42,827 nt of DNA from Thermoanaerobaculia bacterium (GCA_027069135.1 JALXFE010000460.1:1-42827); one strand, 5' to 3'. Counted from the stretch's first letter, positions 882-35,241 are shown. Notes: generated from the sequence alone by a model not told the origin. Numbers and translations: made by a program.

Positions 882-1895
882 TCAGGGAAACACGATGCCG
901 ACGGGCGACGGCATGAAGCTGAAGAGAAAGACGAGCAAGGCCACGAACGCCAGCGCCTGACGGCCTTTTCCCAGGGGAGCGTCTTCATCCCGGACCGGCG
1001 GGTGTCGCAGCCCCATCAACAGAACGAAGACACACCACACCCACCATACCGGCCAGAAAAAACCTGCCGCCAGAAGCAGCAGCCAGAAGGGAAGGGCGAG
1101 GCGTCGTTGCCAGCGGCCCGCGGAGGCGTAGAGGATATGTCCTCCATCCAGCTGGCCCAGCGGCAGGAGGTTCAAGGAGGTGGCCAGAAGACCCACCCAG
1201 GCCGCCAAGGCTGCGGGATGAAAATCCAAGAAGTACCCGGGAGGAAGGGAACCGTGGGTCATGTGGACACCCCATCGGAGGGCTAGGCTATTGCCGACGA
1301 AAACGAAAGGCCCCCCAACATCCTCGAGTTCCGCCATGGGGACGAGCTGCGAGCGGGCGAGGCCGTAGAGCAGGACCGGAATCAGCGCCGCGAAGCCCGC
1401 CAGAGGCCCAGCGATGCCGACATCGAAGAGCTGGCGCTTGAGCCTTATGGGGGCCCGGATGCGAATGAACGCGCCGAGGGTGCCCAGACCCAAGGGAAAG
1501 GGCAGGAAATAGGGAGGTGTAGCCGGCAATCGGTACCAGCGGCACGCCAGGTAATGCCCCATCTCATGGCAGAAGAGAATGAATAGGACCGAGACGGAAA
1601 AAGCGAGGCCGCGGCGCAGGAGCTCCGGGTCGCTCCAGACCCGGTGCAGCGCTTCCGGGGAAGCCCACAGGGCCCGGTCTGCGCGAACCACGATCTCCTC
1701 GTTCCACAAGGCGCCGATGGTCGTCGTCGTCACGAAAGTCAACAGGAGGAGGGCGATGGCCAGCGGCCATTCACGCATCCGCTGAGCCAAGGTCTTAGGA
1801 AGCGGGCCGAGCTCGCGCATCGATTCCAAGGGAATCTCGTCCAAGGGGAAACGGGAAGGCAGGGGAAGCGGTTCCTGGGGAGGGTCGAAGGGCAC
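882..1895 (-). CDS. Membrane site-2 protease family (M50) metalloprotease
   Basis: Polytopic intramembrane zinc protease of 337 residues. The zinc-binding HEMGH lies at residues 110-114 inside a hydrophobic segment, and the third-ligand motif LDGGH at 249-253 follows NLLPLGQ, both hallmarks of S2P enzymes. Further hydrophobic helices lie at about 45-65, 97-112, 160-180, 228-245 and 265-330. A Pro-rich cytosolic N-terminus precedes the first helix. The layout resembles the soluble-tail-free S2P proteins of Acidobacteria and plants (EGY1-like) rather than RseP, as no PDZ domain is visible. It starts 15 bases after the HU gene on the same strand, so the two are probably co-transcribed. The substrate is unknown. 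Confidence 0.88.
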   Translation of the reverse strand: MPFDPPQEPLPLPSRFPLDEIPLESMRELGPLPKTLAQRMREWPLAIALLLLTFVTTTTIGALWNEEIVVRADRALWASPEALHRVWSDPELLRRGLAFSVSVLFILFCHEMGHYLACRWYRLPATPPYFLPFPLGLGTLGAFIRIRAPIRLKRQLFDVGIAGPLAGFAALIPVLLYGLARSQLVPMAELEDVGGPFVFVGNSLALRWGVHMTHGSLPPGYFLDFHPAALAAWVGLLATSLNLLPLGQLDGGHILYASAGRWQRRLALPFWLLLLAAGFFWPVWWVWCVFVLLMGLRHPPVRDEDAPLGKGRQALAFVALLVFLFSFMPSPVGIVFP

Positions 1896-1910
1896 TAGAA
1901 AGTGAGACTC

Positions 1911-2177
1911 TCAGAGGTCTTTGAGCTCTTTGCCGGGCTTGAAACGAACGGTCTTTCCCGGAGCGATGGCGACCTCGACGCCGGTCTTGGGATTTCTGCC
2001 GACGCCTTTCTTTCGGTCCCGGACCTGGAAGACCCCGAAGCCGCGTAATTCGATGCGTTTTCCCTGGCGTAGGGCGTCCTTCATCGCTTCGATGATGGCG
2101 TCCACCGCCTTGGCCGCTTTGATCCGCGGAACGTCGGTGACCTCGACGACGCGATTGACGATATCGGCTTTGATCAT
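1911..2177 (-). CDS. hup: HU/IHF-family DNA-binding protein
   Basis: 88-residue histone-like protein, the normal length for HU. It begins MIKADIV, has the helical dimerisation half, and carries the beta-arm signature GFGVFQVRDRKKGVGRNPKTG followed by VRFKPGKELKDL. The arm contains the RNPKTG tip that holds the DNA-intercalating proline. It binds and bends DNA non-specifically as a dimer. It lies 46 bases downstream of the MshEN-domain gene and 15 bases upstream of the S2P gene on the same strand. Whether it is HU or IHF-like cannot be decided from this sequence alone. Confidence 0.95.
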   Translation of the reverse strand: MIKADIVNRVVEVTDVPRIKAAKAVDAIIEAMKDALRQGKRIELRGFGVFQVRDRKKGVGRNPKTGVEVAIAPGKTVRFKPGKELKDL

Positions 2178-2223
2178 TTCAGCTCCAAAACGGCGCGAAG
2201 CTTACCAGCGGGTTTGGGCTCCG

Positions 2224-3477
2224 TCAAACGGAATTTCTGGCTTTTTCGGATTGCAGGCGATTTCGTAAGATGCAGTTCTCAAAGGCTTTGACGGCGTGGA
2301 CCGCCATTTTTCGGAGCTGGGCGACCTCGATTTCCGGGGTCCTCAAGGGAGTGTCGACATAGACCAGGCAAAGGGTCTGCCGATGGCTGGTCAGGGGGAT
2401 GATTCCACAGCTCTCAGGCCACGCCGCGCCGCGCCAGCAGGAGAGGAACCGACGGTTGGCTTCGTGCCGGGCCATGGGACCGATGTGTAGGCTCCCACCG
2501 AGAATCAGATTGAGGAAAGCGGACGGTTCTTCGGGGCCGATCTGCAGATCGGAGAATTCCTTGGCGTTCAAGCCTGCCCCATGAGCCATCCACCCCTTGA
2601 ATCCGGTCTTGAGCGGCTTGAGGAGGGCTACGCGCCGATACAGTCTCGCCAGACCGGTGCGCAGGGCTTCTCCCACGTCGGGAGCTCGGGTCGCTCGCAG
2701 GAGACGTTGCTCGAGGGGCATCGCTGCCAGCTCCTTTTCCGTCATCTGACGAGACAGCTCCTCGCGTTCCGATGGCGAAAGCTCCACGATCTGCACACGG
2801 GTCCTGGGAGCCGGAGCTTGCTGCGCCGGCGGCGAAGGCTCCGGAGAGGATTGCCCCTCGCCTTGCGGCCCGGGTTTTTGAGAGCGATGGGAGCGGGGAA
2901 GAGGAGCCGAGAGCGGGGCGTTCAAGACACCGAGCCGGTCGAGAGAAGGGGGCAGCGGCGCCGCCTTAAACTCTCCACTTTCGCTGCCGGAAGCGGTTCG
3001 ACTCCGGTTGAGCTGTTTGAGAAGCCGAGAGATGCGGGGTGGGCAATCGATGCCGTAAAGCCCTTCAAGCCCTTCGTAGACCCGGGCCTCGTGAAGACTC
3101 AAAGGCAGGATCTTCTTGTTGGTTGCAAAGGCGAGCTCATCCCGCGCAGCCAGGTCCCCGGCGTCTTCGAAAGCCACCGAGAGAGTTCCCGCGGTTTCGT
3201 GAATGGGGAAGACTCGCCGCCGCCGGGCGAGCTCCGTCGGGACCAGAGAGGAAAGGCCCTTGGGAAGGTCCCGGAGCCCGTCGATGGGGCCCTGGGATAC
3301 GCCGGCTCGTTCCGCAAGGACCGTCAGGAGCCGTTCTTCGGAGATGGCGCCGATTTCCAGGAGGCTCGTTCCCAGCCGGCCCCCATATTTTCTTTGCTGA
3401 GCCAAGGCTCGGACGAGCTGCCCCCGGGTGATCCATCCGCGCAGTTGCAGAACCTCTCCCAATCCGAGTTGACTCAA
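2224..3477 (-). CDS. Orphan MshEN (GspE N-terminal) domain protein with GAF-like tail
   Basis: 417 residues. The first ~150 resemble the N-terminal domain of type II secretion / type IV pilus ATPases (GspE_N/MshEN): LGEVLQLRGWITRGQLVRALAQQRKYGGRLGTSL followed by the ISEERLLTVLAERAGV repeat. MshEN domains bind cyclic di-GMP in several proteins. There is no Walker A or B, so this is not the secretion ATPase. A Pro/Ser-rich linker (about 160-235) leads to a C-terminal domain of about 180 residues that ends in a long helix (AVHAVKAFENCILRNRL), as GAF domains do; that fold is a guess. A good sigma70 promoter lies about 50 bases upstream. A role as a signalling adaptor is inference. Confidence 0.7.
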   Translation of the reverse strand: MSQLGLGEVLQLRGWITRGQLVRALAQQRKYGGRLGTSLLEIGAISEERLLTVLAERAGVSQGPIDGLRDLPKGLSSLVPTELARRRRVFPIHETAGTLSVAFEDAGDLAARDELAFATNKKILPLSLHEARVYEGLEGLYGIDCPPRISRLLKQLNRSRTASGSESGEFKAAPLPPSLDRLGVLNAPLSAPLPRSHRSQKPGPQGEGQSSPEPSPPAQQAPAPRTRVQIVELSPSEREELSRQMTEKELAAMPLEQRLLRATRAPDVGEALRTGLARLYRRVALLKPLKTGFKGWMAHGAGLNAKEFSDLQIGPEEPSAFLNLILGGSLHIGPMARHEANRRFLSCWRGAAWPESCGIIPLTSHRQTLCLVYVDTPLRTPEIEVAQLRKMAVHAVKAFENCILRNRLQSEKARNSV

Positions 3478-3534
3478 GTTCCGTGGCCTCCAAGCCTAAG
3501 TCTTTATGAAAAAGAAGTTTATGGCCCAATTGAA

Positions 3535-3563
3535 ATTATATGGACGGTGCTCGCGGTTGTAAA
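3535..3563 (-). promoter_or_regulatory. Sigma70 promoter for the leftward MshEN / HU / S2P genes
   Basis: On the minus strand, TTTACA (3558-3563) and a perfect TATAAT (3535-3540) are separated by exactly 17 bases. The predicted transcription start near 3528 gives a leader of about 50 bases before the gene starting at 3477. This is the best-matching sigma70 promoter I found in the window. Confidence 0.75.
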
Positions 3564-3607
3564 GAATGGCGGTTGTCCAAACACCGAGGCGTTGATATCC
3601 TGAGACG

Positions 3608-5536
3608 ATGAGATGTTCCTCTGCATTCTGCGTTTTCTTCCTACTCTCCCCCCTCCTTGCGGCGGCAGATTCCGTCGATGCATCCCTGAGCTTCGCCATG
3701 GCCAAGCTCTTGGCCGACGAGGGATCCTTCAGAGAGGCTCTTGAATCCTTCGAGAAGGCCGCGGCGGCGGCACCGGAGGATCCCTACATCCGGACCGAAT
3801 ACGCAGAGTTCCTCACTCGGCTGGCGCAGCTTTCGAGGTCTCCCCGATACCGTCAGCAGCAATTGGATCGGGCCCTCGAACAGGCTCGTGTCGCCCAGGA
3901 GCTGGCGCCGGTGGACACCGATGTCCTCAAAGTCGTGGGGGAGACCTACCTCGCGGTTGCGGAGGCGGATCCTCGCGATACCGGACCGCTGCACGAAGCA
4001 GCAAGCGTCTTCGAGAAGATTCGCCAGGCTTCTCCCAACGCGTTGGGGGAGCGGATGACTTTGGGCCAGATCTATACCTATCTGGGAGATCCGGAGAAAG
4101 CGATTCCGGTGTTTCGAGAAGTGATCGCCGCCACACCCCGGGATCGAAGAGCCTATGAGCGCCTGGTGCAGGCCCTGATGGAGGCGGGCCGGGCCGAAGA
4201 GGCCGAGACGGTATTTCAGGAGATCCTGGGTTTCGATCCGGAGGCCAGTCAGGCCCGCCTGGGGCTGGCCGAGCTCCTCGCTCAACGGGGGGAAGCCGGG
4301 GCTGCCGTCCAGGTGCTCCGGGAAGGCTCTGCGGAATTTCAAGCTGGGGATAAGATCCGCCAGCTCTTGGCCGTTCAGCTATATCTCTCCGGAGACTTTC
4401 CCTCCGCATTAGAAGAGCTCGAAGCCATTGACGGCAAGGAAGGCGTCGAGCCCATGGGGGCCCTTCGAGCCCTCATCCTCAGCGCTCAAGGGCGCAACGA
4501 GGAAGCCGCGGCAGAGCTGGAAGAGCTCCTCCGGGAGGATCCCGCCAACGCCGATATCGCCGGTGCCTTAAGCCGGGTCCTGGTGCGTATGGGAAAGAGT
4601 CAAGAGGCAGCTACGGCGCTTCAAGAGGTGACCTTGCGACTCGAGGAGGCCGACAAGGATCGGGGTCTTCGCCTCCGCTTCGAGTGGGCCGAGCTTCTCC
4701 TCGGGGCCGAGGATTGGTCCCAGGCCCTCGAGGTCCTGGAGCCCGTGGTCTCGAGCGAACGACCGCAGCTCCGTGCGGCCGCCGGCCTCTTGCAGGCCGA
4801 GGCTCTTTCGCGGCTCGGCCGCGAGGAAGAAGCCCTAGGTCTCCTGCGAGCCACCGGCTCCGGAGATCCTCCGAGCCGTGCCAAGGAGGCCGAGATTCTC
4901 CTGCAGACCGGCAGCGCAGCGGCGGGGGCCTCCATCCTCGCAGATCTGGCGACCTCCGGCGACGAAACCGACATCGTCGCTGCCGCCTCGGTGTATCAGA
5001 GGCTGGAGCGTTATGGAGATGCGGTCGAGATGCTGGGCCCCTACGTCAAGGACAACCCCAAATCCTTGAGGGCCCTCTTCCTATTCGGAGCCGCCAACGA
5101 ACGCAGCGGTCGCCGGCCGGAAGCCGTCGCTGCCTTTCGCAGTCTCCTCGAGCTGGACCCGACCTTTCCCGAGGCCCTGAATTACCTCGGATATATGTTT
5201 GCGGAGCAGGGCGAGAATCTGGAAGAGGCGGAAGAGCTGATTCTGAAAGCTGTTCGGACGGAGCAGGAGAACGGAGCCTTCGTCGATTCTCTCGGGTGGG
5301 TCTATTTTCAGATGGGCCGCTTCGAGGAGGCCCGCTTGCACTTGGAGAGGGCCGTACGTCTGATGCCCGGAGACGGCACGGTCTTCGAGCATCTGGGCGA
5401 TGCCTATCTGGCCCTGGGCCTTGAGGGAGATGCCCGCGAAGCCTATTTGAGAGCCCTGGAGCTCGAGGATACGGACCAGGAAAAAGTCCGCGGGAAACTC
5501 GCTCCCCTGGCCGAAAAGCCCGGCACTGAGGATTGA
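3608..5536 (+). CDS. Secreted/periplasmic TPR-repeat protein
   Basis: 642 residues with a short signal peptide (MRCSSAFCVFFLLSPLLAAA, cleavage near residue 20) and TPR-type helical pairs through almost the whole length, about fourteen or more. The last block (LNYLGYMFAEQGENLEEAEE, then FVDSLGWVYFQMGRFEEA) matches the large TPR proteins that sit before lolB in pseudomonads (PA4667-type). The start is chosen for the signal peptide; no Shine-Dalgarno is visible, and a weak promoter (TTGTCC, 17 bases, TATCCT at 3573-3601) would put transcription start almost on the ATG, so leaderless translation is possible. Its stop abuts the start of the LolB-like gene. TPRs bind proteins; a role in outer-membrane assembly is inferred from context. 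Confidence 0.85.
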   Translation: MRCSSAFCVFFLLSPLLAAADSVDASLSFAMAKLLADEGSFREALESFEKAAAAAPEDPYIRTEYAEFLTRLAQLSRSPRYRQQQLDRALEQARVAQELAPVDTDVLKVVGETYLAVAEADPRDTGPLHEAASVFEKIRQASPNALGERMTLGQIYTYLGDPEKAIPVFREVIAATPRDRRAYERLVQALMEAGRAEEAETVFQEILGFDPEASQARLGLAELLAQRGEAGAAVQVLREGSAEFQAGDKIRQLLAVQLYLSGDFPSALEELEAIDGKEGVEPMGALRALILSAQGRNEEAAAELEELLREDPANADIAGALSRVLVRMGKSQEAATALQEVTLRLEEADKDRGLRLRFEWAELLLGAEDWSQALEVLEPVVSSERPQLRAAAGLLQAEALSRLGREEEALGLLRATGSGDPPSRAKEAEILLQTGSAAAGASILADLATSGDETDIVAAASVYQRLERYGDAVEMLGPYVKDNPKSLRALFLFGAANERSGRRPEAVAAFRSLLELDPTFPEALNYLGYMFAEQGENLEEAEELILKAVRTEQENGAFVDSLGWVYFQMGRFEEARLHLERAVRLMPGDGTVFEHLGDAYLALGLEGDAREAYLRALELEDTDQEKVRGKLAPLAEKPGTED

Positions 5537-6319
5537 TTGGCTAACCGTCCGTGGCGATCCTCGTCCGGGCTCCGAAAGGGGCTCGGGGCTACACTTTGCG
5601 CTCTGGCGACGGTCGTCGCAGCATCGGGTTGTTCTTCCCAGCCTTCTCTGGCACCCCTTCCCGGGCCGCCCCCGGTTCTGGCCGCGTCTCCCTGGGAGCT
5701 ACCCCAGGAGGCCTTCGCTACGCAGAGACTCTTCCGGGTCCGATTCGAGAGCGAGGATGGGGATGGGCGTTTCCGGCTGACTCTGCGTCTCGTCGATGCG
5801 GAGCGCTTCCAGCTCCGCGCCATCGATCCCCTCGGTCGGTCGGTTTGGACCCTCCATTCGGATCGGGGGAGTTCCTTATTTCTTGACCACCGGGAACGTC
5901 GAGCCTGCACCTTCGGGCCTCGGGTAGATCTGACGGAGCTCTACTTGGGCTCATTTCCGGCCCGAGACCTGCCAGCGCTCATTCTTGGCCGGATCCCCGC
6001 CCAACCGATGGGGGATCCTCTTTGGGGCAGGGAAGAATCGATGGAATCTCAGACTCTCGAATTCCGAGATCAGCAAGATCGGGGCTGGAGCAGCCGTTGG
6101 GCCCGTGGGCGTCTGATCAGTTGGTCTCTGCGGTCTGCGGCGGGGGAACCACTGGCGTCGTTACAGCGGGAGGAGAACGGCTTTCGGTTGCAGGACCGCC
6201 GTCGTCGACTGGAGGTTCAGTGGCGGGAAGTTGCCGCCGAGCCCCTTCGCAAGGCCCTCGAGAAACCCGAGACCCCTTCGAGCTATCGCCAGGATGGCTG
6301 CTTCGCCGGGGCTGGCTAG
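5537..6319 (+). CDS. LolB-like outer-membrane lipoprotein
   Basis: 260 residues with a TTG start directly after the TGA of the TPR gene, so the two are translationally coupled. The signal sequence ends in a lipobox with acylated Cys32 (VVAASGC). A Pro-rich stretch then leads to a beta-rich domain (RLFRVRFES, RFRLTLRLVDAERFQLRAID, GRSVWTLHSD) of the LolA/LolB/DUF4292 type, expected to hold a lipid or lipoprotein in a hydrophobic half-barrel. Position after the TPR gene and upstream of prs, rplY and pth matches lolB of gamma-proteobacteria. Sequence similarity alone is weak, so the name rests mainly on context, lipobox and fold pattern. I give no gene symbol for that reason. Confidence 0.65.
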   Translation: MANRPWRSSSGLRKGLGATLCALATVVAASGCSSQPSLAPLPGPPPVLAASPWELPQEAFATQRLFRVRFESEDGDGRFRLTLRLVDAERFQLRAIDPLGRSVWTLHSDRGSSLFLDHRERRACTFGPRVDLTELYLGSFPARDLPALILGRIPAQPMGDPLWGREESMESQTLEFRDQQDRGWSSRWARGRLISWSLRSAAGEPLASLQREENGFRLQDRRRRLEVQWREVAAEPLRKALEKPETPSSYRQDGCFAGAG

Positions 6320-6363
6320 CTCCACTCGCGAAGAGTCCGGATCCCCCTCGTCGGAGAATCCAT

Positions 6364-6392
6364 TTGACACCTCGCCTTGCCGCCTCTAGCAT
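6364..6392 (+). promoter_or_regulatory. Sigma70 promoter upstream of spoVG
   Basis: TTGACA (6364-6369, perfect) and TAGCAT (6387-6392) are spaced by 17 bases in the 123-base gap after the LolB-like gene. Predicted transcription starts near 6399, about 44 bases before the GTG of spoVG, and could read on through tRNA-Gln and prs. Confidence 0.7.
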
Positions 6393-6442
6393 ACGCTCCA
6401 CGCAGAGCCTCGCTCTGACTCGAAAGGCCAGGAGAGGCAACG

Positions 6443-6850
6443 GTGGAGATCACAGAGGTCAAAATCTTTCCGGTTGGTGAAGACAAACTCCGGGCGTTCG
6501 TCTCGATCGTCTTTGACCATAGTTTCATGGTTAACGATATCAAGGTGATCCGCGGCCGAGACGGGCTGTTCATCAGTATGCCGAGTCGGCGTAAGAAGAA
6601 CGGCGATTTCAAGGACGTGGCCCACCCGCTGAACAATGAGACTCGAAGTCGACTCGAGGCTCGGATTTTGGCGGAGTACGAACGAGCCGTCGCGGAGCGA
6701 AGCGCTGCCCCGGCGGGCGGTCTAGCGGCTGCGCCGGTGATTGCGAAGTCTGACTCGCCGCCTCCGGTGGAGGAGACGCCTCCCGAGGAGCGGTCCCTCG
6801 AGGAGGTCGAAGAGCTTCATCTGCGGGATTCTTTCTGGTCGGTACCGTAG
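6443..6850 (+). CDS. spoVG: SpoVG-family nucleic-acid-binding regulator
   Basis: 135 residues starting at GTG 6443, preceded by a good ribosome binding site (GGAGAGG, 6431-6437). The first ~85 residues are typical SpoVG: MEITEVKIFPV, LRAFVSIVFDHSFMVNDIKVI, GLFISMPSRRKKNGDFKDVAHPL. The family binds DNA and RNA and adjusts gene expression in many bacteria, including non-sporulating ones. The tail (about 90-135) is Ala/Pro/Glu-rich, ending acidic, and is longer than in Firmicutes. The order spoVG - prs - ctc - pth is also the Bacillus order, which supports the call. Confidence 0.95.
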   Translation: MEITEVKIFPVGEDKLRAFVSIVFDHSFMVNDIKVIRGRDGLFISMPSRRKKNGDFKDVAHPLNNETRSRLEARILAEYERAVAERSAAPAGGLAAAPVIAKSDSPPPVEETPPEERSLEEVEELHLRDSFWSVP

Positions 6851-6901
6851 CGTGGTCGAACAAGCTGCATTGTTGGCTGGAGAGGTTAGGAAGCGATTTC
6901 T

Positions 6902-6976
6902 TGGGGCGTCGCCAAGTGGTAAGGCACCAGACTTTGGATCTGGTATTCCTAGGTTCGAATCCTAGCGCCCCAACCA
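6902..6976 (+). tRNA. tRNA-Gln (anticodon UUG)
   Basis: Seven-base-pair acceptor stem (TGGGGCG, 6902-6908, with CGCCCCA, 6966-6972), D arm with GTGGTAAGGC, anticodon stem CCAGA/TCTGG around loop CTTTGGA giving anticodon TTG at 6934-6936, and a T arm containing GGTTCGAATCC. Discriminator A at 6973 and an encoded CCA at 6974-6976. It reads CAA and, by wobble, CAG. It lies between spoVG and prs, the usual place of tRNA-Gln in the lolB-prs region of pseudomonads. Confidence 0.97.
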
Positions 6977-7141
6977 TCACCCTTCGTACCGAGCCGACGA
7001 AAAACGCTCGGACGGGAATCGGGAAACATCGGCAAGATTCGGTAGGATAGGAAGAGCTCGAAAATAGCGAGGCCTTGCGAGGTTTCGGTTCGTCATGAGC
7101 CTTCGAGGCATCTTTACGGGTAGAGGATTACGGCAGGACCT

Positions 7142-8083
7142 ATGTACGGCGAGTTGAAAGTCTTCGGGGGAAGAGCCCACCCTTCCCTCGTTTCCGAGAT
7201 CTGTGACTATCTGAGCGTGGCCCAAGGCAAGGCGACAGCGTATAACTTCTCCGATGGGGAGTCCTTCTTCCAGATCGACGAGAACGTTCGCGGCTCGGAT
7301 GTATTCGTCGTCCAGCCGACGGCTCAGCCCGTCAACGACAATCTCATCGAGTTGCTGATCATGATCGACGCCTTCAAGCGGGCGTCCGCCGCACGGATCA
7401 CGGCGGTGATTCCCTACTACGGCTACGCCCGTCAGGACAAGAAGGATCGGCCCCGGGTACCGATTACCTCGAAGTTGGTCGCGGATCTGATCTCGAAGGC
7501 CGGAGCCGACCGGGTTCTGACCATGGACCTCCACGCGTCTCAGATTCAAGGGTTCTTCGATGTTCCCGTCGACCATCTCTTCGCCGCGCCCGTCCTCCTC
7601 GATGCGATTCGTGCCAAGGACCTGCCGGATCTGATCATCGTCGCGCCGGACGCTGGCGGAGTCGAGCGGGCTCGAGCCATCGCCAAGCGCTTGGCCACTG
7701 GCCTGGCGATCGTCGACAAGCGCCGGACGGCTCCCAACACCGCTGAGGTCATGCACCTGATCGGTGACGTCCAAGGGCGCACGGCCCTGGTCATCGATGA
7801 CATCATCGATACCGCCGGTACACTGGCCAAGACGGTCGGTCTTCTGGAGAAGAAAGGCGCCGAGCGAATTCTTGCCGTGGGTATCCACGGAGTTCTTTCC
7901 GGACCGGCCCTGGAGCGACTCGAAGAGTCCCCCTTGGAGTCGGTCCTCATCACCAACACCATTCCGATCGATGACAAGCTGGCCGCCTGTAAGAAGCTGA
8001 GCTCCGTGTCGGTGGCTCCCCTCCTGGGGGAGGCGATCCGACGAATTCACGAAGACAGCTCGGTCAGTTCCCTGTTCGTATAG
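7142..8083 (+). CDS. prs: Ribose-phosphate pyrophosphokinase (PRPP synthetase)
   Basis: Makes PRPP from ribose 5-phosphate and ATP for nucleotide, His and Trp synthesis. 313 residues, the standard class I length. Visible motifs are the N-terminal VFVVQPTAQPVNDNLIE, the ATP-site PYYGYARQDKK, the catalytic/flexible region TMDLHASQIQGFF, and the ribose-phosphate loop ALVIDDIIDTAGT with the conserved DDxxDTxGT. The segment IVAPDAGGVERARAIAKRL is also typical. It stands 13 bases before the L25 gene in the conserved prs-rplY-pth order. A 165-base gap after tRNA-Gln holds one hairpin (CCGAGC 6989-6994 with GCTCGG 7006-7011) without a T-run; no clear promoter is seen there. Confidence 0.98.
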   Translation: MYGELKVFGGRAHPSLVSEICDYLSVAQGKATAYNFSDGESFFQIDENVRGSDVFVVQPTAQPVNDNLIELLIMIDAFKRASAARITAVIPYYGYARQDKKDRPRVPITSKLVADLISKAGADRVLTMDLHASQIQGFFDVPVDHLFAAPVLLDAIRAKDLPDLIIVAPDAGGVERARAIAKRLATGLAIVDKRRTAPNTAEVMHLIGDVQGRTALVIDDIIDTAGTLAKTVGLLEKKGAERILAVGIHGVLSGPALERLEESPLESVLITNTIPIDDKLAACKKLSSVSVAPLLGEAIRRIHEDSSVSSLFV

Positions 8084-8096
8084 AGGTAAAGTCGCC

Positions 8097-8750
8097 ATGA
8101 GTGAAGTCGCAATCGAAGTACAGACGCGGGAAGAGAAGGGCTCCAACGCCAGTCGCCGCCTGCGCAACGAAGGGAAGGTCCCTGCGGTCGTCTACGGCGG
8201 CAAGCTCGACGCCGCGCCCGTGGTCGTCAACCGTCGGCGGGTGATCGAATCTCTGCAGGAGGCCGGAGGCGAGAACGCGATCTTCCTCTTGACGCTGGGC
8301 AAGGACAAGCGCCATGCCATGATCCGGGAGATGCAGGTGGATCCGATCACGAACCGGATCGAACACATCGATTTCCAGCGCATCGACATGGCCGAGAAGG
8401 TGAAGGTCGAGATCCACGTGGAGCTCACCGGCGAAGCGGTCGGCGTCAAGCTCGAAGGTGGTCTGGTGGACTTCATCACCCGCTCCGTGGCGGTCGAGTG
8501 CCTGCCTTCAAATATCCCCAACGAGTTGAAGCTCGACGTCTCCGAGCTCCACATAGGGCAGCATCTGGAGGCCAAGGATCTCCCGATACCAGACGATGTC
8601 GAGCTGGTGGAGGACGAATCCCGGGTCATCGTTTCCGTCGCCGCTCCCCGTGTCGCCGACGAAGAAGAAACGAGCGCCGAGGACGAAGGTCTTCTCGAAG
8701 CCGGTGGTGAAGAGCCGGAGGTTGCGGGGCACGGGAAAGAAGAAGAATAG
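8097..8750 (+). CDS. rplY: Ribosomal protein bL25, Ctc/TL5 long form
   Basis: 217 residues, so the long (Ctc/TL5) form: an N-terminal 5S-rRNA-binding L25 domain (EKGSNASRRLRNEGKVPAVVYGG, about 1-95) and a C-terminal beta domain (VKVEIHVELTGEAVGVKLEGG onward). A final ~40 residues are strongly acidic (EEETSAEDEG and similar) and probably disordered. It binds 5S rRNA in the large subunit. Start ATG 8097 follows AGAGGTAAAG. It is placed between prs and pth as in most bacteria. Confidence 0.97.
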   Translation: MSEVAIEVQTREEKGSNASRRLRNEGKVPAVVYGGKLDAAPVVVNRRRVIESLQEAGGENAIFLLTLGKDKRHAMIREMQVDPITNRIEHIDFQRIDMAEKVKVEIHVELTGEAVGVKLEGGLVDFITRSVAVECLPSNIPNELKLDVSELHIGQHLEAKDLPIPDDVELVEDESRVIVSVAAPRVADEEETSAEDEGLLEAGGEEPEVAGHGKEEE

Positions 8751-8776
8751 AGGGCTATCGAGATCCCGGAGACCCT

Positions 8777-9379
8777 ATGGCCGAGATGCGAGAGGAAGGC
8801 TCCGATGTCCCCTGGCAAGTCGTCGTCGGGCTGGGCAATCCTGGCCAGAAGTATCGTGCAACACGGCACAATGTAGGTTTTCGGGTCCTAGACGAGCTGG
8901 CCCGGCGGCGGGGATCTTCCTTGGATCGAGAGGAATGCGGCGCTCGGATCGCTGTACTTCAAGCGCATCACCTTCTCTTGGTGCAGCCTCAGACGTTCAT
9001 GAACCGTAGCGGCTACGCCCTGCGGTGTTTGGCGGAGACGAGATCTCTGAGCGCCGCCTCGTTCCTCGTGGTCTACGACGAGATTCATCTTCCCCTGGGC
9101 CGCCTGCGGTTGAGGCCCAAGGGAGGGCCGGCGGGCCATAGGGGCATGGAGTCCGTCATCGAGAATCTTCGTACAGAGCAGGTGGCTCGTATGCGGTGCG
9201 GTGTCGCCTTGGACGACGGCGCTCCCCTGGATGGGGAGGAGCTGGTGGACTTCGTGCTGGCACCCTTCGGGAGCGACGAAGAGGAGAAGGTAGAGGACAT
9301 GATCCGTCGCGCAGCGGATGCCTGTGAGGCCTATTTGGCCGAGGGCGTCGCCGCGGCGATGAATCGATTCAATGGTTGA
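8777..9379 (+). CDS. pth: Peptidyl-tRNA hydrolase
   Basis: Frees tRNA from peptidyl-tRNA that drops off ribosomes. 200 residues. The family motifs are [19 protein letters not shown] with the catalytic His in [12 protein letters not shown] with the conserved Asn, and the [20 protein letters not shown] loop with the conserved Asp. A short charged N-terminal extension ([13 protein letters not shown]) precedes the usual start. It lies 26 bases after rplY in the same direction. Confidence 0.97.
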
Positions 9380-27995: not shown

Positions 27996-28901
27996 ATGAA
28001 GTGGAGTCATAGAAGAAGCGAGGCGAGAGTGCTCTTGGTCGCCGTTCTGGCCATGGGAAGCACAGTGTCTTGGGTTGTCGGGGCCCAGACGGAAGAGGTC
28101 CAGGCCCAGACGGAAAAGCCCAAGCAGGATACTTCCGGTGAGGCCATGCCCGGCAGCCGGACCGAGCCTGGCAGGGTGCTGGCCCTCCCGGAGGCCCGGG
28201 TAGCCCCCAGAGTCTTGGCTCGGCCCGGTGGAGCGCCCAGGATCTCGACGGTGAAGCCGCGGATCATCGGGGAAGGGATGGCGCAGGCTCTCTCCGCTCC
28301 CCAGGCCGTGGTGCGAGGGGATCTTCTCCCGGTCGCTCAGCTTCGTTCGGTGGTCCAGGACAAGGCGCCGGTCACCCAGCTCAAACCCCGTCTGGCCTCT
28401 GGGCTAGAGAGTTCAGAGAGCTACCTCAGCATCGTGATGCGGGTTCGCTCGGACGGCACCTCGCAAGTGGTGAGCGCGACGGAGATTCCCGGCCCGGCAC
28501 CGGTGTCCGAGGAGCCCAAGGGGGATTTCCTTTACGAGGTCCAGCTGGGCGGAAGAGCGGTAGCGGTGGAGGCTCTGCCGGACCCCTTCGAGGCTCACGC
28601 CTTCGGCGGTCCCCCGGGAACCCCCGAGGCCCTGCACCACTTCGAGCGCCAGGAGGCGGCGACGGTGGTGATCAAAGTACCCAAGGCAGGTCTCGATAGC
28701 TCGCTTGAAGACCTCTCCTTTCAGCTCTTCAAGCTGGAAGGGGGAGCACCCCTCGAGAAGGTCAACCCGCAGGTCTTAGAGCAGCTGAAGCGCAGCCGCT
28801 ACCTGCGCAGCCTGGTGCGCTCGGCTCCCCAGACCCTGGCCCCCCAAATTCGTGAGCTCGGGCTGACGCTGCGGCCGGAGGCCCTCGAGATCCAGAAGTA
28901 G
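27996..28901 (+). CDS. Secreted protein with DPFEAHxFGGPPG domain (paralogue 1)
   Basis: 301 residues; family not recognised. Start ATG 27996 follows AAGGAG. Signal peptide up to about VVGAQ (residue 30), then a Pro/Ala/Arg-rich, low-complexity section to about 135. The C-terminal domain (about 138-301) begins SYLSIVMRVRSDGTSQVVS, has DPFEAHAFGGPPG at 196-208, VVIKVPKAGLD, and ends with conserved helices (VNPQVLEQLKRSRYLRSL). The same domain forms almost all of the next protein. It starts 39 bases after the M64 gene. A role as inhibitor, substrate or partner of the peptidase is a guess from neighbourhood. Confidence 0.7.
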   Translation: MKWSHRRSEARVLLVAVLAMGSTVSWVVGAQTEEVQAQTEKPKQDTSGEAMPGSRTEPGRVLALPEARVAPRVLARPGGAPRISTVKPRIIGEGMAQALSAPQAVVRGDLLPVAQLRSVVQDKAPVTQLKPRLASGLESSESYLSIVMRVRSDGTSQVVSATEIPGPAPVSEEPKGDFLYEVQLGGRAVAVEALPDPFEAHAFGGPPGTPEALHHFERQEAATVVIKVPKAGLDSSLEDLSFQLFKLEGGAPLEKVNPQVLEQLKRSRYLRSLVRSAPQTLAPQIRELGLTLRPEALEIQK

Positions 28902-28959: not shown

Positions 28960-29032
28960 CTCCTTTGGAGTGATGGCCGCCCCATCTTCGAAGGCGGCCG
29001 GTAGTATGATCCATTCCGGGAGGCAATCCATC

Positions 29033-29656
29033 ATGCACCGCCAGCATCTCGCCTCATCGTTATCCTCCATGTCCATTGTCGCCGTTTTTCTGCTGTCTCT
29101 TTCGGCTCTGGGCATGTCCTGCCCGACCGGTGCCGAGGATCCTCCGGCGCAGTCAGGGGATTCGGCATCACAAGACAGCTATCTGCACCTCCTGCTTCGG
29201 GTGACGAGAGAAGGCGAGATGGAGGTGACCGGCGTCTCCCAGGTACCGGGGAAGCTGGTGATCTCCGACTATCCCGCCGGTCCCTATGTGATCGAAGTTC
29301 GCCGCGACGAGCGCATCGTCGCCGTGACCTCCATCGTCGACCCTTTCGAAGCCCACGGCTTCGGCGGGCCTCCGGGAGGGGGGCAGGAAGAGCACTCTTT
29401 CGAGGCCCAGACCCCTGTCACCATCGCCGTCAAGATCCCCGATGCCAAGCTTGCCGATCCGGGTTTGGATCGTCTCGCCATCACCCTCTACCGACGTCTC
29501 GATCCCGGAGTCGCCCTCCGGCGAATCGATCCCCAAGTCCAGGCCCAGCTGCTGAGAGAACGCCGCTTGGAAGAGGTCGGGGCCCTCGGGGGCCGAGACC
29601 TCGCCGAGCAGATCCGGGCTGAGGGCCCGGCGGTGGACCCCCAAGGAGAAGTGTAA
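29033..29656 (+). CDS. Secreted protein with DPFEAHxFGGPPG domain (paralogue 2)
   Basis: 207 residues from ATG 29033, chosen because GGGAGG lies 9 bases upstream; an in-frame start at 28970 would delay the signal peptide. Signal sequence SSMSIVAVFLLSLSALGMSC may be a weak lipobox (GMSC). The mature part starts QDSYLHLLLRVTREGEMEVTGVSQVPG and aligns with paralogue 1 throughout: DPFEAHGFGGPPG at 103-115, VTIAVKIPDAKL, RIDPQVQAQLLRERRLEEVGAL. Identity is moderate, so the duplication is old. Function unknown. It ends shortly before the nested inverted-repeat elements. Confidence 0.7.
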   Translation: MHRQHLASSLSSMSIVAVFLLSLSALGMSCPTGAEDPPAQSGDSASQDSYLHLLLRVTREGEMEVTGVSQVPGKLVISDYPAGPYVIEVRRDERIVAVTSIVDPFEAHGFGGPPGGGQEEHSFEAQTPVTIAVKIPDAKLADPGLDRLAITLYRRLDPGVALRRIDPQVQAQLLRERRLEEVGALGGRDLAEQIRAEGPAVDPQGEV

Positions 29657-29672
29657 GAGTACGTCCCTCTTA

Positions 29673-29994
29673 GCAGCCCGTGGCAGAAGTCAGGCGCTAG
29701 TGTCCCGATTGACAAATTCATCGCATAAATACGCGGCCCTTTCGGGCTCTAGCTGCGTTGTTCCTCCGCGCAATAGCTCTGCTATTACTTGTCCTCACGC
29801 CTTACCAGAGTCCCGAAATGCCTCGCGATTTCTCACGCGAATTAGTCAATCGGGACACTAGCGAGAGCGAGGAGTATTCGAGCCGAATCAAGGCGGAAGA
29901 CCGCAGATGATTCTTAGAATCATCGAGGTTTGACAACGAAGATTCGGCCGAATAGAACTGCTCGGAGCGCGGTTCGACTTTTGCCACGGGCTGC
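29673..29994. mobile_element. Outer MITE-like element (B)
   Basis: Terminal inverted repeats: 29673-29691 (GCAGCCCGTGGC...) and 29976-29994 match at 18 of 19 positions. With the inner element removed, the left arm goes on to align with the right arm through AGTATTCGAGCCGAATC versus its inverse ATTCGGCCGAAT, so the original element is a long imperfect palindrome of about 150 bases. A central hairpin GATGATTC-TTA-GAATCATC lies at 29906-29924. No transposase. It ends 6 bases from the stop codon of the Schlafen-like gene. Confidence 0.7.
29695..29863. mobile_element. Inner MITE-like element (A) inserted in element B
   Basis: Perfect 19-base inverted repeats: 29695-29713 (CGCTAGTGTCCCGATTGAC) and 29845-29863. 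The CTAG in each end (29697-29700, 29858-29861) can be read as a 4-base target duplication, leaving TGTCCCGATTGAC as the true end. A central hairpin AATAGC-TCT-GCTATT lies at 29772-29786. The inside has no reading frame long enough for a transposase. CTAG fits the YTAR target of IS5-type transposases; that link is an inference. Confidence 0.75.
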
Positions 29995-30000
29995 AAGGAC

Positions 30001-31275
30001 TTAGGATTCCTCCGAGGCCTCAGTGGCGAAGATCGTCAAGAGCAACTCCGCATCGTCGATCAGTCGGTAGGTGGGAATCTGGCCGCTCAGGGCCTTGCTT
30101 CTCGAGAGAATAATGGGCACTCCCTCGCCCCGTTTGTCCATGACATGAGTACGGTCAGGGGCCTCGCGCCCTCCGTTGGTACGAACCGGGCAGCGCGCGA
30201 GAAGACTGGTGATCGCCTCATTCCGCGTGGCTTGGCGGAAGGCGAGGCTCTCCACGGTCATCGTGTTCGGGATAGTGCCCGGGGAGAAGAGCTCCAGCCG
30301 ATTGCTGAATAGGCGCAAGCGGATCTTGGAACCATAGACCGAATAGTCGCGATGAGCCACCGCGTTGGTGACGGCCTCGAATACCGCGATCATGTCGAAT
30401 TGAGGTAGATCTTCCCGCCCGACTCCCCTTTTTCGTGCGGCGACCCACATATTCTTTCTTACGAAGTCGCAAGCCGCAAAGATTTGCTCGTCCAGCGGGC
30501 CGCTCAAATCCTGTGCATCGCGCTGATAGAAAGAAGCCTCCTGCTGGGTGAGGTCCGTCCCCCTATAGGCCACCGCCTGGATGTAGGCGTTGGCAAGGAA
30601 GCGCCGGGGATCGCGGCTCGCCATCAGCACGCCGGCTACCGTAGGGCGAATCACCCCGTCGTCATCGTGTCTCGCCATCGCTAGTTTCTGAAGGAGGTCA
30701 TCCCGGGATTCTTGTGTCCTCCCGCCGACGAAGCGCTGCCAGAGGTCAGGCTCCAGGTCATCCAATTCTGCCTTGGGTAGACATTGTTCGTCGAAGCGTA
30801 TGATGCGCGCTTGGCTTCGCTGCTGGAATAGCCGGGCAAGGTAGTCCGGCGGCATAGGCCGCTTGCTGCTTCCCACCCGGTGAAAGTAGCCGCCCGGGCT
30901 CTGATGCACGAATAGGCTGCGCGGGACATCGATGCGCAGAACGGGAAGTTCTTCGCCGAGATTGTTCGGGAGCTTCAGCCGCTCGATGATTGGAGCGAGG
31001 GGAGGTGTGACCGAATCCTGGCAAGCTTCCCGCACCAGGTTCTCGATCGCATCGAGCCTTTCGATGGGGATGCCGAGTACCTCCCGCGTCCCGTCGTCGA
31101 CTCCCAGAACCAGTATCCCGCCGCGACTGTTGGCGAAGGCGGCTAACTCGTCAGCCAGGTCCCTGCGGAGAGGTCCGCTGACCCTGCCCCCGGTGAAGCG
31201 AACCTCCTTCAGCTCCAGATAGCTGTCTTCCCCCAGCTGGATCTTTTCCAGGAGCTCAGACCTGGTACGCCACAT
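30001..31275 (-). CDS. Schlafen AlbA_2 / HATPase_c_4 domain protein
   Basis: 424 residues from ATG 31275 (a TTG two codons earlier is closer to the GGAGG site and is possible). N-terminal AlbA_2 domain: EDSYLELKEVRF, LADELAAFANSRGGILVLGVDD, then YFHRVGSSKRPM. The middle and C-terminal half have the GHKL-like region seen in this family: FDMIAVFEAVTNAVAHRDYS and KIRLRLFSNRLELFSPG, then DKRGEGVPIIL. Such proteins are annotated as ATP-binding or transcriptional regulators and often occur in defence islands; AlbA_2/Schlafen domains can cleave RNA. It lies 101 bases downstream of the DUF262 gene on the same strand and may be a fourth member of that operon. Confidence 0.85.
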   Translation of the reverse strand: MWRTRSELLEKIQLGEDSYLELKEVRFTGGRVSGPLRRDLADELAAFANSRGGILVLGVDDGTREVLGIPIERLDAIENLVREACQDSVTPPLAPIIERLKLPNNLGEELPVLRIDVPRSLFVHQSPGGYFHRVGSSKRPMPPDYLARLFQQRSQARIIRFDEQCLPKAELDDLEPDLWQRFVGGRTQESRDDLLQKLAMARHDDDGVIRPTVAGVLMASRDPRRFLANAYIQAVAYRGTDLTQQEASFYQRDAQDLSGPLDEQIFAACDFVRKNMWVAARKRGVGREDLPQFDMIAVFEAVTNAVAHRDYSVYGSKIRLRLFSNRLELFSPGTIPNTMTVESLAFRQATRNEAITSLLARCPVRTNGGREAPDRTHVMDKRGEGVPIILSRSKALSGQIPTYRLIDDAELLLTIFATEASEES

Positions 31276-31376
31276 GGTCAACTTCTACCTCCAAGCCCTT
31301 CGGTATCCTTTGGAACCATGATTTCCTCGCCGACTTCCGAAACCGAGTTTCTCACGGCTCTCATGGCTTAGCCGAT

Positions 31377-33044
31377 CTACTCGATCTCATCCGTATCCGA
31401 GGAATCGCTGTCCGCCGCGGCCAGAGCCTGACGGCTCGCGGGCAATCTCACCCGCTGCTTTTCTAGGAACCCTCGCTCACCATCAATCAGTTTCTGCAGT
31501 CTGGCTTCGATGACCCTTTCCCGATTACCGTCCCGAATCAGGGCTCGGGCACCGTCTGAAAAACCATGGCTTACAAGGATGGATTCATCCTGATTTGTCA
31601 GATCATTCCAAGTCTGTCCTGAGTGGTCACGATCGGCAAACATCCTGTTCGCCGGACTACTCCTAAGAGGACCCGGGAGGCTGCTGCTGACGTACGCCAG
31701 AGCCCCGGGGCCGAGCTCGGAAAGGAGCTCCCCTGGCCGAAGGGGAGAAGGAACTCCGTGGATAGATTGCGGATGAAGTGAGACCAGGTACAGAAGAAAA
31801 GCGCGAACTCGGGCACTCCGCGCGTCAAATCGCTCCGGGAAAGGTTCTGCAGGAGACTCCAAATCGAAGACGTCGAATTCTCTGCGTTCACCTCTCGCCA
31901 GTTCTCGCATCTCCTCCAGCGATTTCCCCACACGCGCCGTATTGACTCCACCAAACCATGCTGTAAAAGAAGTGACCCAGAACCACCGGCGCAGCAGCGA
32001 TTCCAGTTCCGAGTCGGATGGAGCCTTCCTGAGGCGAAAGAACTCGGCGAGCAGCACGAGTTGAAGTCCGTAGGGTAGAAGCCGGTCCGAGGTGACTCCA
32101 AGGTCCTCAAGAAACTTCAAAGCCAGGCGAAGCCCCCGCGTAGCATCTTCGAAGGCTTCCGGCAGAGCCTCTCGCACCTCGTCCCGTACCATCAGGCCTT
32201 CCCAGTCCTTGGCATAGATATCTCGGCCCATCGCCGCTAGAACCGAGCGGAGGATGAACCCGCGGTCGAGGCAGCCAAATCCCCGATGGGAGATCTCCGC
32301 CTGGAATTCATCGAGCTTCGTGGCTAGGTGGAACTGGCCCTCCCGGTAGGTCAGAGCTGAGACCATCTGGTCAGCGGTCATTCGTCGGCCCCGGAGGTTC
32401 AGTCTCGCAAAGACGGTGACCGCTGCATCCAGATTGGCATCCTTGATCGTGATGGTGGGAACCTGGTAGTCACGAAAGGCGTTGGCAAGCCGATCAGCTG
32501 CCTGAAGGAGGGTCTCTACGCTCCTTGGGGCTGCAGTTGTCTCGATGTGGCGGCATGCCGCGAGAAAGCCCGAGGTTGAGAGCAAGGACCGAACAGGGAA
32601 ATGATGGACCTCGGCTCCGCCACGCGGTTCCGGCAAGAATTCTCTTTCCTCGAGGTCATAGTAGACCCGCCAGTTGACTCCGGCAGTCAACTTCGAGGAC
32701 TTCTCAGGAAGTTGAAGGGTACCGGCGAGCGTCGACACGCGCTGTTGTCCGTCGAGAAGGTAACTCACAACACCCTTCGGTCGCTCTTTGACTTCGATAG
32801 GACCTACCTGATCAATACTCGTGACCGTCGAGTCAGTTTCCCAAAGGAGGATGCTCCCGATGGGGTAGCCCTCCACGATGCTGTCCAATAATTGGAGTAT
32901 TTGATGTTGCTTCCAAACGAACGGTCGCTGGAATCGCGGAACCCGAAGAGCACCTCCGGTGACCCGTTCGAGCAACTTTCCTACGAAGACTACTTCCGGG
33001 GTGACTTCAATCCGTTTCAATTCACGACTTTGCATCCGCCTCAT
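31377..33044 (-). CDS. DUF262 (GmrSD N-terminal-like) protein
   Basis: 555 residues. DUF262 core at the N-terminus: RVPRFQRPFVWKQHQILQLLDSI (36-58), GSILLWE, and the ParB/Srx-like nucleotide motif SYLLDGQQRVSTLAG with DGQQR at 98-102; later VFARLNLRGRRMTADQMVSALTY. DUF262 is the N-terminal half of GmrSD type IV restriction enzymes and uses NTPs. The DUF1524 HNH nuclease half is not evident, although ANRMFADRDHSG near the end could be a relic. The remainder is helical. Its ATG overlaps the stop of the TOPRIM-like gene as ATGA, so the two are translated together. Anti-phage function is inferred. Confidence 0.85.
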   Translation of the reverse strand: MRRMQSRELKRIEVTPEVVFVGKLLERVTGGALRVPRFQRPFVWKQHQILQLLDSIVEGYPIGSILLWETDSTVTSIDQVGPIEVKERPKGVVSYLLDGQQRVSTLAGTLQLPEKSSKLTAGVNWRVYYDLEEREFLPEPRGGAEVHHFPVRSLLSTSGFLAACRHIETTAAPRSVETLLQAADRLANAFRDYQVPTITIKDANLDAAVTVFARLNLRGRRMTADQMVSALTYREGQFHLATKLDEFQAEISHRGFGCLDRGFILRSVLAAMGRDIYAKDWEGLMVRDEVREALPEAFEDATRGLRLALKFLEDLGVTSDRLLPYGLQLVLLAEFFRLRKAPSDSELESLLRRWFWVTSFTAWFGGVNTARVGKSLEEMRELARGERREFDVFDLESPAEPFPERFDARSARVRAFLLYLVSLHPQSIHGVPSPLRPGELLSELGPGALAYVSSSLPGPLRSSPANRMFADRDHSGQTWNDLTNQDESILVSHGFSDGARALIRDGNRERVIEARLQKLIDGERGFLEKQRVRLPASRQALAAADSDSSDTDEIE

Positions 33045-34000
33045 ACCTCCTTGCGAATCAGGCTAAGACCGTGCTCGAGATCCCCGCGTCCTCGTTTCAA
33101 TAGCTCCTTCTTCGGGGAAACGCTCCAGTTTTTCCAGCAGTGGTGAACTTTTCGGCCGAATCCAGTCTTGAGTAGGTCGCGGTCTTTCTTGTTGAGCTCG
33201 TTGAAAAGCTTTCGTTCGGCGGGTTGCGGCTTGGTGGGGAGGCCGTTCTTCATATCTAAGTAATCTTTCTGATCATCCGAGAGTCGGTCCCAGGCTTCCA
33301 CTCGTTGCGCGTGGTCTCGGCCGCTGTCAGGCCGAGCCTCGAGGAGAGGGCGAGGTAGGTAGTTTTCGGCTTCTCTTTTTGCCAAGATCCAGCATGGAAG
33401 GTTTTGCTGCTCGCACTTCTCCTTGAGTCGCTGCGCTTCGAGGCTGGGTTTCTCCTCAGGTCCCTTCCTATCGCTATCGACCATGACAACAAGTCTTGGT
33501 CGCACCTGTGACGAAGCACACTTTCTCGTAACCTCCTCGACCATCTGTCCTTTTCCACCGACGCTATCAAATTGAAGAGGCTCTCCGCTCATCTTCAGTA
33601 GTTTCCTGAGGTCGTGATCCAATTCATGAATGACACGGCCCAGAAAGCCGTGACCGTCGCTCACTCGGTTCTCAACGAGAACCACCAGGGGCTGCTCTGC
33701 CAGGCGTGCAGCGCTTTCTGGAGAAAGTTTCTCGGAGCCGTTGGGGGCGTTGGTGACTCGAAGTCGACGACCATGCGGGCCAGGTCCGCTCCAGGCACTG
33801 CGGCGCGTAGCCGCCACGAAGAGCTCGCTTACCCAGGCCCCGGCCCTTCCACGATCGCAAATCCAGGTTGTTTCGGAGAACCTCTCAAGGCCTGTTACGT
33901 CCCAGAGGTGCCAGCCATCACCAATTTTGTGGAGCAGACGGTCGAGCCATCTATGAGCCGCCGGATCGTCGGCTACCGAAGTTTCGATCTCGATCAGCAC
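33041..34000 (-). CDS. TOPRIM-like (OLD/AriB-type) protein, separate from its ATPase
   Basis: 319 residues from GTG 34000, whose first base overlaps the stop of the ATPase gene. Three spaced acidic motifs look like a TOPRIM nuclease fold: Glu in PLVVLVENRVSDGHGFL, DSD in RLVVMVDSDRKG, and Glu in CWILAKREAENYLPRPLL. The REAENYLP segment recalls OLD-family TOPRIM and DUF4435 proteins. The C-terminal 90 residues are basic and Lys-rich. A split ATPase + TOPRIM pair is the layout of PARIS (AriA/AriB); here a DUF262 gene follows. Nuclease or sensor activity is inferred from motifs only. Confidence 0.6.
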   Translation of the reverse strand: MLIEIETSVADDPAAHRWLDRLLHKIGDGWHLWDVTGLERFSETTWICDRGRAGAWVSELFVAATRRSAWSGPGPHGRRLRVTNAPNGSEKLSPESAARLAEQPLVVLVENRVSDGHGFLGRVIHELDHDLRKLLKMSGEPLQFDSVGGKGQMVEEVTRKCASSQVRPRLVVMVDSDRKGPEEKPSLEAQRLKEKCEQQNLPCWILAKREAENYLPRPLLEARPDSGRDHAQRVEAWDRLSDDQKDYLDMKNGLPTKPQPAERKLFNELNKKDRDLLKTGFGRKVHHCWKNWSVSPKKELLKRGRGDLEHGLSLIRKEV

Positions 34001-35241
34001 TAGGCAATTCTTTCATGGGCCATCCGTCGAATGGCGAGGATCTCATCGTAGTCCTCGTAGAAGACGCCGTCCGGCCATCCTTCCACTTCGCCGTCCTCAG
34101 TCACGTGAATCCTGCGGGCAGAAGCGAGACCCTCTTCCGAGATATCGATCCAGTAGATGGCCAGATCTTCAGGAGGTAGTTTGCCCTCCACGACTCGACG
34201 GCGTGCCCTCAGCAGCAGCATTTCAGAATGGGTCTCCACCAAGAGAGGCCGATTCCTGCCAGCGAGACTCTCGAGGAGCAAGTCGGCGACGGCGCCATGG
34301 GCTCCCGGATGGAGCTCTGCCTCGGGATGCTCGATCAAATCGATCCCGGGGCCGCGTTCTTCCGCGGAAAGGGCTTGCACAGCCACCGGCAACACCTGGG
34401 CAAGCCCCTGGCCCGCTTGATCCATGGAGATAGTGGTGCTCATCCGGGGGTCACGGATCTCGAGAAAGGCCACATCTCCCTGCATCCGAAGATCAACCGT
34501 AACTCCGAAGTGTTCCCGGTACCATTCCCGTACCTTGGCCCGCAGAGTGTCCGAGTCGGCAAGAAGATAAGCTGTCTGCATTCCATCGAGATTGGCGGTG
34601 GCCCATTGTTCTCCAGGAAATGAAAAAGGAGAGGAGGGGAGGCTCCGTGGTGACTTGAGGTATGAAACGGATCTTGCCCAGCTAACAAGGTCGTCCAAGA
34701 TCGATTCGACTCTCTCGGTTGCCTCTCCGAATTTCGAAAGGTCGGGGCGGAGCCCACGCCAGGAGACCGGTGTCGTCTCGTCCGTGCCCGGTAGGCCCGA
34801 GAGCTCGTAGGTTGAGTCGCCTGGGTCTAGACCTGTTCGTTCCAGGTTAAGTGATAGGTCATCGGAGCGGAGGATCCAGGACTTTACGACTTGACGGACT
34901 GCCGCGCCGGCGCCGGTGACCACGGACTGGACGACCACCTTGAGGTTGATTCGAGTGGATCCGCTTCTGAATTCTGCGGTGAGCGTGATGTTGCCGTGAA
35001 TGGCACGGTGGCTGATCAAATCCTGCAGGGTCCTTCCATGGACCAAGCCGGAGGATGCGAGCGGCAGGGGGGTCTCGTGTCGATTTCCAAGGAGCCCTCC
35101 GGCGAGCAAGGGGATGGCTCGTGCCAGAGCGCTCTTACCCGAGCTATTTCTTCCTACCAAGATCGTCAAGGGCCGCACGCAGAGTTTACAGGGCTCGAGG
35201 TACCCTTTATACCGTTCAACTTGGAGGCTCTGAAGGTGCAT
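34000..35241 (-). CDS. OLD/ABC-type ATPase, DUF3696-like
   Basis: 413 residues from ATG 35241 with AAGGAG 8 bases upstream; an in-frame GTG at 35304 is less likely. SMC/OLD-like ATPase: VERYKGYLEPCKLCVRPLTILVGRNSSGKSALARA with Walker A at 30-37, signature-like DQAGQGLAQVLPVAVQAL, Walker B DLIEHPEAELHP, and the switch His in VETHSEMLLLRARR. The end (EDGEVEGWPDGVFYEDYDE) fits the DUF3696 C-terminal motif. No TOPRIM is fused; a TOPRIM-like gene follows at once. Such ATPases act as scaffolds or sensors in defence systems such as PARIS and Gabija. It is first of the ATPase / TOPRIM / DUF262 operon. Confidence 0.88.
   Translation of the reverse strand: MHLQSLQVERYKGYLEPCKLCVRPLTILVGRNSSGKSALARAIPLLAGGLLGNRHETPLPLASSGLVHGRTLQDLISHRAIHGNITLTAEFRSGSTRINLKVVVQSVVTGAGAAVRQVVKSWILRSDDLSLNLERTGLDPGDSTYELSGLPGTDETTPVSWRGLRPDLSKFGEATERVESILDDLVSWARSVSYLKSPRSLPSSPFSFPGEQWATANLDGMQTAYLLADSDTLRAKVREWYREHFGVTVDLRMQGDVAFLEIRDPRMSTTISMDQAGQGLAQVLPVAVQALSAEERGPGIDLIEHPEAELHPGAHGAVADLLLESLAGRNRPLLVETHSEMLLLRARRRVVEGKLPPEDLAIYWIDISEEGLASARRIHVTEDGEVEGWPDGVFYEDYDEILAIRRMAHERIA

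Follow-up and report, generated by a model that had tools for sequence, protein, structure and literature searches.

The window, by which the whole analysed stretch of 42,827 nucleotides from a Thermoanaerobaculia bacterium is meant, contains four open reading frames (A, B, C, and D) on the minus strand (Table 1), as in an earlier note on this DNA, which described four leftward genes here. The one-base overlap claimed in that note is also found, as the stop codon of A and the start codon of B have one base in common (TAGTG, 34000-34002), and so is the distance of 101 bases between the third gene and the fourth. The 4-base overlap of B and C that it proposed (ATGA, with a C start at 33044) probably reflects a false start. 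An AGGAGG sequence immediately precedes the ATG at 33044, while an alternative ATG at 33035 lies 5 bases past the B stop codon, and this gap matches the 4-7 bases that separate B and C in the closest homologues; the true start of C is therefore probably the ATG at 33035. As for the domains, Pfam agrees with the calls made for A (OLD/DUF3696), C (DUF262), and D (Schlafen AlbA_2; SLFN_AlbA_2, 4e-18), and it adds a HATPase_c_4 domain in D that had not been named. For B, which had been called TOPRIM-like, Pfam is silent, but the AlphaFold2 model folds as an OLD-type TOPRIM protein.

Table 1. Genes and motifs of the locus in the window, and related gene pairs at other loci.
Feature	Position	Strand	Remark
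Gene A, OLD-family ABC ATPase (AAA_15/DUF3696), PDC-M55A	34000..35241	(-)	413 aa
Gene B, stand-alone OLD-type TOPRIM protein, predicted nuclease, PDC-M55B	33041..34000	(-)	319 aa, GTG start
Gene C, DUF262/GmrSD_N protein, BrxU-like fold, PDC-M55C	31377..33035	(-)	552 aa
Gene D, SLFN_AlbA_2 + HATPase_c_4	30001-31275	(-)	
Walker A of A, GRNSSGKS, residues 30-37	35131..35154	(-)	G30, N32, G35, K36 invariant
E110 of B, putative TOPRIM metal-site glutamate	33671..33673	(-)	invariant; catalytic role inferred
DSD motif of B (D175, D177), putative TOPRIM metal site	33470..33478	(-)	invariant; catalytic role inferred
DGQQR motif of C, residues 95-99, putative NTP site	32739..32753	(-)	alignment
A-like/B-like pairs	L197 2740-4335; L013 1156-2280 (G055:C42); L011		

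By the profiles of PADLOC-DB v2, in which PDC-M55 is listed as a candidate system, A matches PDC-M55A (E 2.6e-72, residues 1-411), and B and C match PDC-M55B (E 1.7e-38) and PDC-M55C (E 7.6e-135) over nearly their full lengths. The components M55A, M55B, and M55C are adjacent here, and D matches none of them. Judged by these profile matches, the candidate anti-phage system PDC-M55 is present here in full as A-B-C, and the locus shows no structural difference from it save for the unrelated D behind the operon. As a catalogue entry A-B-C was thus already known, and the present locus is a further copy. The view of the earlier note that exactly this set occurs in no characterised system is right as far as characterised systems go, yet A-B-C is catalogued as a candidate; likewise, the exact match to a named system that the note held would speak against its reading was found with PDC-M55, and not with a characterised PARIS or Gabija subtype. 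PDC-x entries are unpublished candidate systems (PMC11811056), and two other PADLOC candidates had no activity in the host tested (PMC12409345). A literature search found neither a paper naming PDC-M55 nor an experiment on any of its members, although the genes may have been mentioned earlier in surveys of ABC ATPases.

A profile of C detected 80 loci in named genomes. When HMMs of all four proteins were run over the loci that had been fetched, 42 showed A-B-C in the same order on a single strand, a number that includes two near-duplicate pairs and a few broken frames and is effectively about 40; the order is kept in 23 of the 24 closest relatives of C. The hosts, according to record titles, are Acidobacteria, Binatia, a Gemmatimonadota-like clade, Bacteroidota, Alpha- and Gammaproteobacteria, Myxococcota, Desulfobacterota, Actinomycetota, and Verrucomicrobiota, which amount to about ten phyla. 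The three closely packed genes pointed out earlier are recovered as a conserved operon in this neighbourhood survey, and it is almost certain that A-B-C forms a three-gene unit. Within the window's phylum its distribution is patchy: among 396 genomes, C exceeds 400 bits only in the window's genome and in one genome of the same order. Copies also occur on plasmids, and in a Leclercia plasmid copy B is split by IS1. When the operon DNA of Leclercia or Klebsiella served as query against E. coli genomes, no copy appeared among the matches listed, which were to IS1 and queH only, and contigs of genomes scanned with a single B sequence gave nothing. The flanking genes had no match in same-genus and same-family genomes, so that no empty site could be compared. 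GC and GC3 of the operon are below those of most flanking genes (GC3 of 61-66% for A-C, 72.9% for D, and 73-85% for the flanking genes examined), and the lower GC3 of A-C fits an acquisition of these genes and a separate origin of D.

The Schlafen/AlbA_2 gene had been taken as a member of one four-gene system, in which the AlbA_2/HATPase_c_4 protein would be a working component. D is on the same strand as A-B-C, follows after the short gap given above, and is preceded by a plausible ribosome-binding site, all of which would suit such a system. However, about 40 A-B-C loci have no D in their flanks, where the D HMM gives a single weak match (2e-9) that lies on the opposite strand and 1.5 kb off (L059). 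The copy on a P2-like viral contig (L152) has no D, no flanking family recurs around the A-B-C loci, and the GC3 of D is apart from that of A-C and nearer to that of the flanking genes. As a general rule the four-gene unit is refuted by this absence, and a role of D in the system appears extremely unlikely; from these comparisons, D is best described as an unrelated neighbour of A-B-C.

In Pfam, A exceeds the cut-offs of AAA_15 (53.3 bits, 4.6e-14) and AAA_21 (41.9 bits), and it also reaches 22.9 bits for DUF3696, with a cut-off of 22. The Walker A motif, the Walker B/HP motif (E304-E307 region), and the ETHS motif (336-339) are invariant in five homologues. Its best match in the PDB is an OLD nuclease, and its next-best PADLOC-DB profile after M55A is Menshen NsnB (7.7e-33); comparison with an NsnB protein gave a probability of 99.2%. 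By sequence, A is thus an OLD-family ABC ATPase whose nucleotide motifs are intact.

B belongs to no Pfam (E up to 1), NCBIfam, or PHROG family, and sequence searches of the PDB, profile search included, found no TOPRIM chain. Its AlphaFold2 model has a mean pLDDT of 94.6. While Foldseek gave no significant match of this model in the PDB, VIA-align ranked the TOPRIM domains of OLD, PARIS, retron, and Gabija proteins first, all above unrelated rows. Residues 100-319 align with the OLD TOPRIM 6nk8 (Z 10.6, 176 residues), and lower scores were obtained with PARIS AriB (8ux9_A; Z 8.8, 158 residues, rmsd 4.3), retron Eco2 (Z 7.5), and GajA (Z 7.2). According to the model, B is therefore a TOPRIM protein that stands alone and has the nuclease fold of OLD and AriB. 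In an alignment of 29-31 homologues, E110, D115, G148, G149, R169, D175, D177, R209, E212, Y214, K251, and G253 are invariant. From the OLD, PARIS, retron, and GajA relatives we infer that the acidic residues may serve a metal-dependent nuclease activity; AriB uses a two-metal mechanism (PMC12409363). It is quite probable that B is an effector nuclease.

C matches GmrSD_N/DUF262 in Pfam (2.4e-24). In its DGQQR motif D95, G96, Q98, and R99 are invariant among 29 homologues, and the third position is Q or H. The AlphaFold2 model (pLDDT 90.6) aligns with BrxU over residues 11-525 with a Z of 16.3 and an rmsd of 15 Å, a value that leaves the placement of the domains uncertain and probably results from domain shifts; it aligns less well with SspE and DndI. 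GmrSD_C/DUF1524 is not matched in Pfam at E up to 1, and the C-terminal part contains no histidine that all 29 homologues share. C therefore combines a BrxU/GmrSD-like fold and an NTP motif, and has no recognisable HNH nuclease; the action on nucleic acid that the earlier note gave to the DUF262 protein is hypothetical. Since the C-terminal region of BrxU is still covered by the modelled fold, C likely keeps a degenerate HNH remnant. More distant relatives of C, with neither A nor B, adjoin HsdS-like proteins of type I RM or a HipA-family gene, and such varied partners fit a sensor or regulator role of C.

In this wider family, DUF262 genes lie directly beside HipA-family genes in an Azospirillum and in a genome of the window's order (L047 5962-8831 and L052 193-4454), possibly as a separate module. 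A membrane-protein-like gene that recurs overlaps a DUF262 gene of the C family on a Klebsiella plasmid (L046 4973-7566) and in Pseudomonas (L089 4973-7548). An apparent C fusion of 1013 aa in one genome (G008) was rejected, as its reading frame had been extended too far and a HipA-like gene comes after it.

Several named systems share parts with A-B-C. As in PARIS, an OLD-type ATPase and a TOPRIM nuclease are encoded by separate adjacent genes, A satisfies the AAA_15/AAA_21 part of the PARIS rule, and B has an AriB-like TOPRIM fold. PARIS, which is triggered by anti-restriction proteins of the Ocr type, has no counterpart of the DUF262 gene C, though. A is nearer to NsnB than to AriA, B has no AriB profile match, its likeness to AriB being one of fold only, and DUF4435 (PF14491) is absent from B and from every member of its alignment, whereas the PARIS detection rule combines an AAA_15/AAA_21 ATPase with a DUF4435 partner (PMC9122126). 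In Menshen, NsnB is homologous to A and the DUF262 N-domain of NsnA to C, but NsnC is unrelated to B. None of A, B, C, and D matches an NsnC profile of PADLOC-DB, and the NsnC model PDLC03879 has no match in the window's genome. A complete Menshen operon (NsnA, NsnB, NsnC) is present in a different genome from the window's phylum (L195 1042-4151, G130:C88), in the order DUF262-ATPase-NsnC instead of the ATPase-TOPRIM-DUF262 found here. GmrSD and BrxU resemble C in fold and in the DGQQR motif of the DUF262 domain; they differ by the DUF1524 HNH domain, which is not recognisable in C, and here a separate TOPRIM protein and an ATPase stand alongside. Gabija likewise has OLD ATPase and TOPRIM domains, but joined in one GajA where two genes are present here, and no helicase such as the UvrD-like GajB was found among the window neighbours examined; the split genes and the missing GajB therefore exclude it. 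By the defining features of each, A-B-C is not PARIS, Gabija, or Menshen.

Apart from these, an A-like ATPase paired with a protein that weakly resembles B (E 5e-8 and 2e-6), with no C, was seen at a few loci (Table 1); these two-gene arrangements are possibly related systems.

On the P2-like contig, A-B-C (3825-7530) is flanked on one side by the replication gene gpA (1349-3679) and on the other by the portal gene gpQ (7977-8990) and terminase genes, which run on the opposite strand, and the interval from gpA to the portal gene holds, besides A-B-C, at most one possible ORF of 98 aa. The gpA-gpQ interval of P2-like phages is a hotspot of anti-phage systems and the home of old and tin (PMC9122126). 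The presence of A-B-C by itself in this hotspot suggests that the three genes alone are the whole cassette. Elsewhere A-B-C adjoins a type III methyltransferase (L058) or a DpdJ/BrxH-like helicase (L112), and other neighbours match DrmA, PglX, HEC-01, reverse transcriptase, and Cas1. Neighbours of a defence type are thus seen around the A-B-C loci, in line with the defence-like island of the earlier note; since the survey of neighbours had no control set, this counts as supporting evidence only. Overall, an anti-phage function of A-B-C is probable.

The explanation that we favour, with some reserve, is that PDC-M55 is an abortive system in which A, together with C, would sense infection and unleash B as the effector. 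By analogy with AriA-AriB of PARIS (PMC12409363), A may hold B inactive in the uninfected cell. C could use its DUF262 domain to pick up an infection cue, such as modified phage DNA or a nucleotide change, and signal to A, which would then release or activate B. B would cut nucleic acid, tRNA or DNA, of the host or of the phage and so bring phage growth to a halt, abortive infection being the most likely way. What triggers the system, what B cuts, and how A and C share the work are drawn as analogies, and this detailed order of signalling is tentative, falling somewhat short of an even chance. The chief alternative is a direct, type IV-like restriction, by which C would recognise modified phage DNA and direct B and A to cut it, and the cell would survive. 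It draws on the BrxU/GmrSD fold and NTP motif of C, whose relatives GmrSD and BrxU restrict modified DNA (PMC10952713), on the OLD and GajA TOPRIMs, which cut DNA (PMC10568477), and on the HsdS-like type I RM genes that adjoin distant relatives of C. Yet C has no recognisable HNH nuclease, and the division into separate ATPase and TOPRIM genes is the design of PARIS, where the TOPRIM protein AriB cuts tRNA (PMC12409363); we consider direct restriction unlikely.

A function outside phage defence, as an addiction or plasmid-competition module, would be in keeping with the plasmid copies and with the ability of ATPase and nuclease pairs to act like toxin-antitoxin pairs, but the copy in the gpA-gpQ hotspot and the defence genes next to A-B-C make it very unlikely. 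A narrower form of the abortive-effector model is that PDC-M55 is a PARIS-like split OLD-ATPase/TOPRIM pair under a nuclease-dead BrxU/GmrSD-like sensor, in which modified DNA would lead to abortive infection and not to restriction. Stated so fully it is rather doubtful; if C is indeed a type IV enzyme that has gone dead and now serves as a sensor, recognition of modified DNA would be linked to PARIS-type suicide. PDC-M55 is a widespread candidate for which the exact three-gene unit is now defined, a natural copy is placed in a known phage defence hotspot, and the likely effector B and its key residues are named.

Downstream of D, tandem paralogous secreted-like proteins with 39% identity and no Pfam family are encoded at window positions 27996-28901 and 28970-29656, and the protein of 28970-29656 had no match in the same-genus and same-family genomes searched. 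Next to them is a MITE-like element of 163 bp (29698-29860) with 22-bp terminal inverted repeats (TAGTGTCCCGATTGAC...), of which about 40 copies with 92-100% identity occur in this genome, several at contig ends. It is enclosed by a second repeat family (29668-29697 and 29861-29999) with 24-bp inverted arms and at least 40 copies at 90-99%, and the end of its copy in the window falls 1-2 bases from the D stop codon. The 163-bp element likewise borders on the second repeat in at least five more of its copies, as if that repeat were a preferred target.
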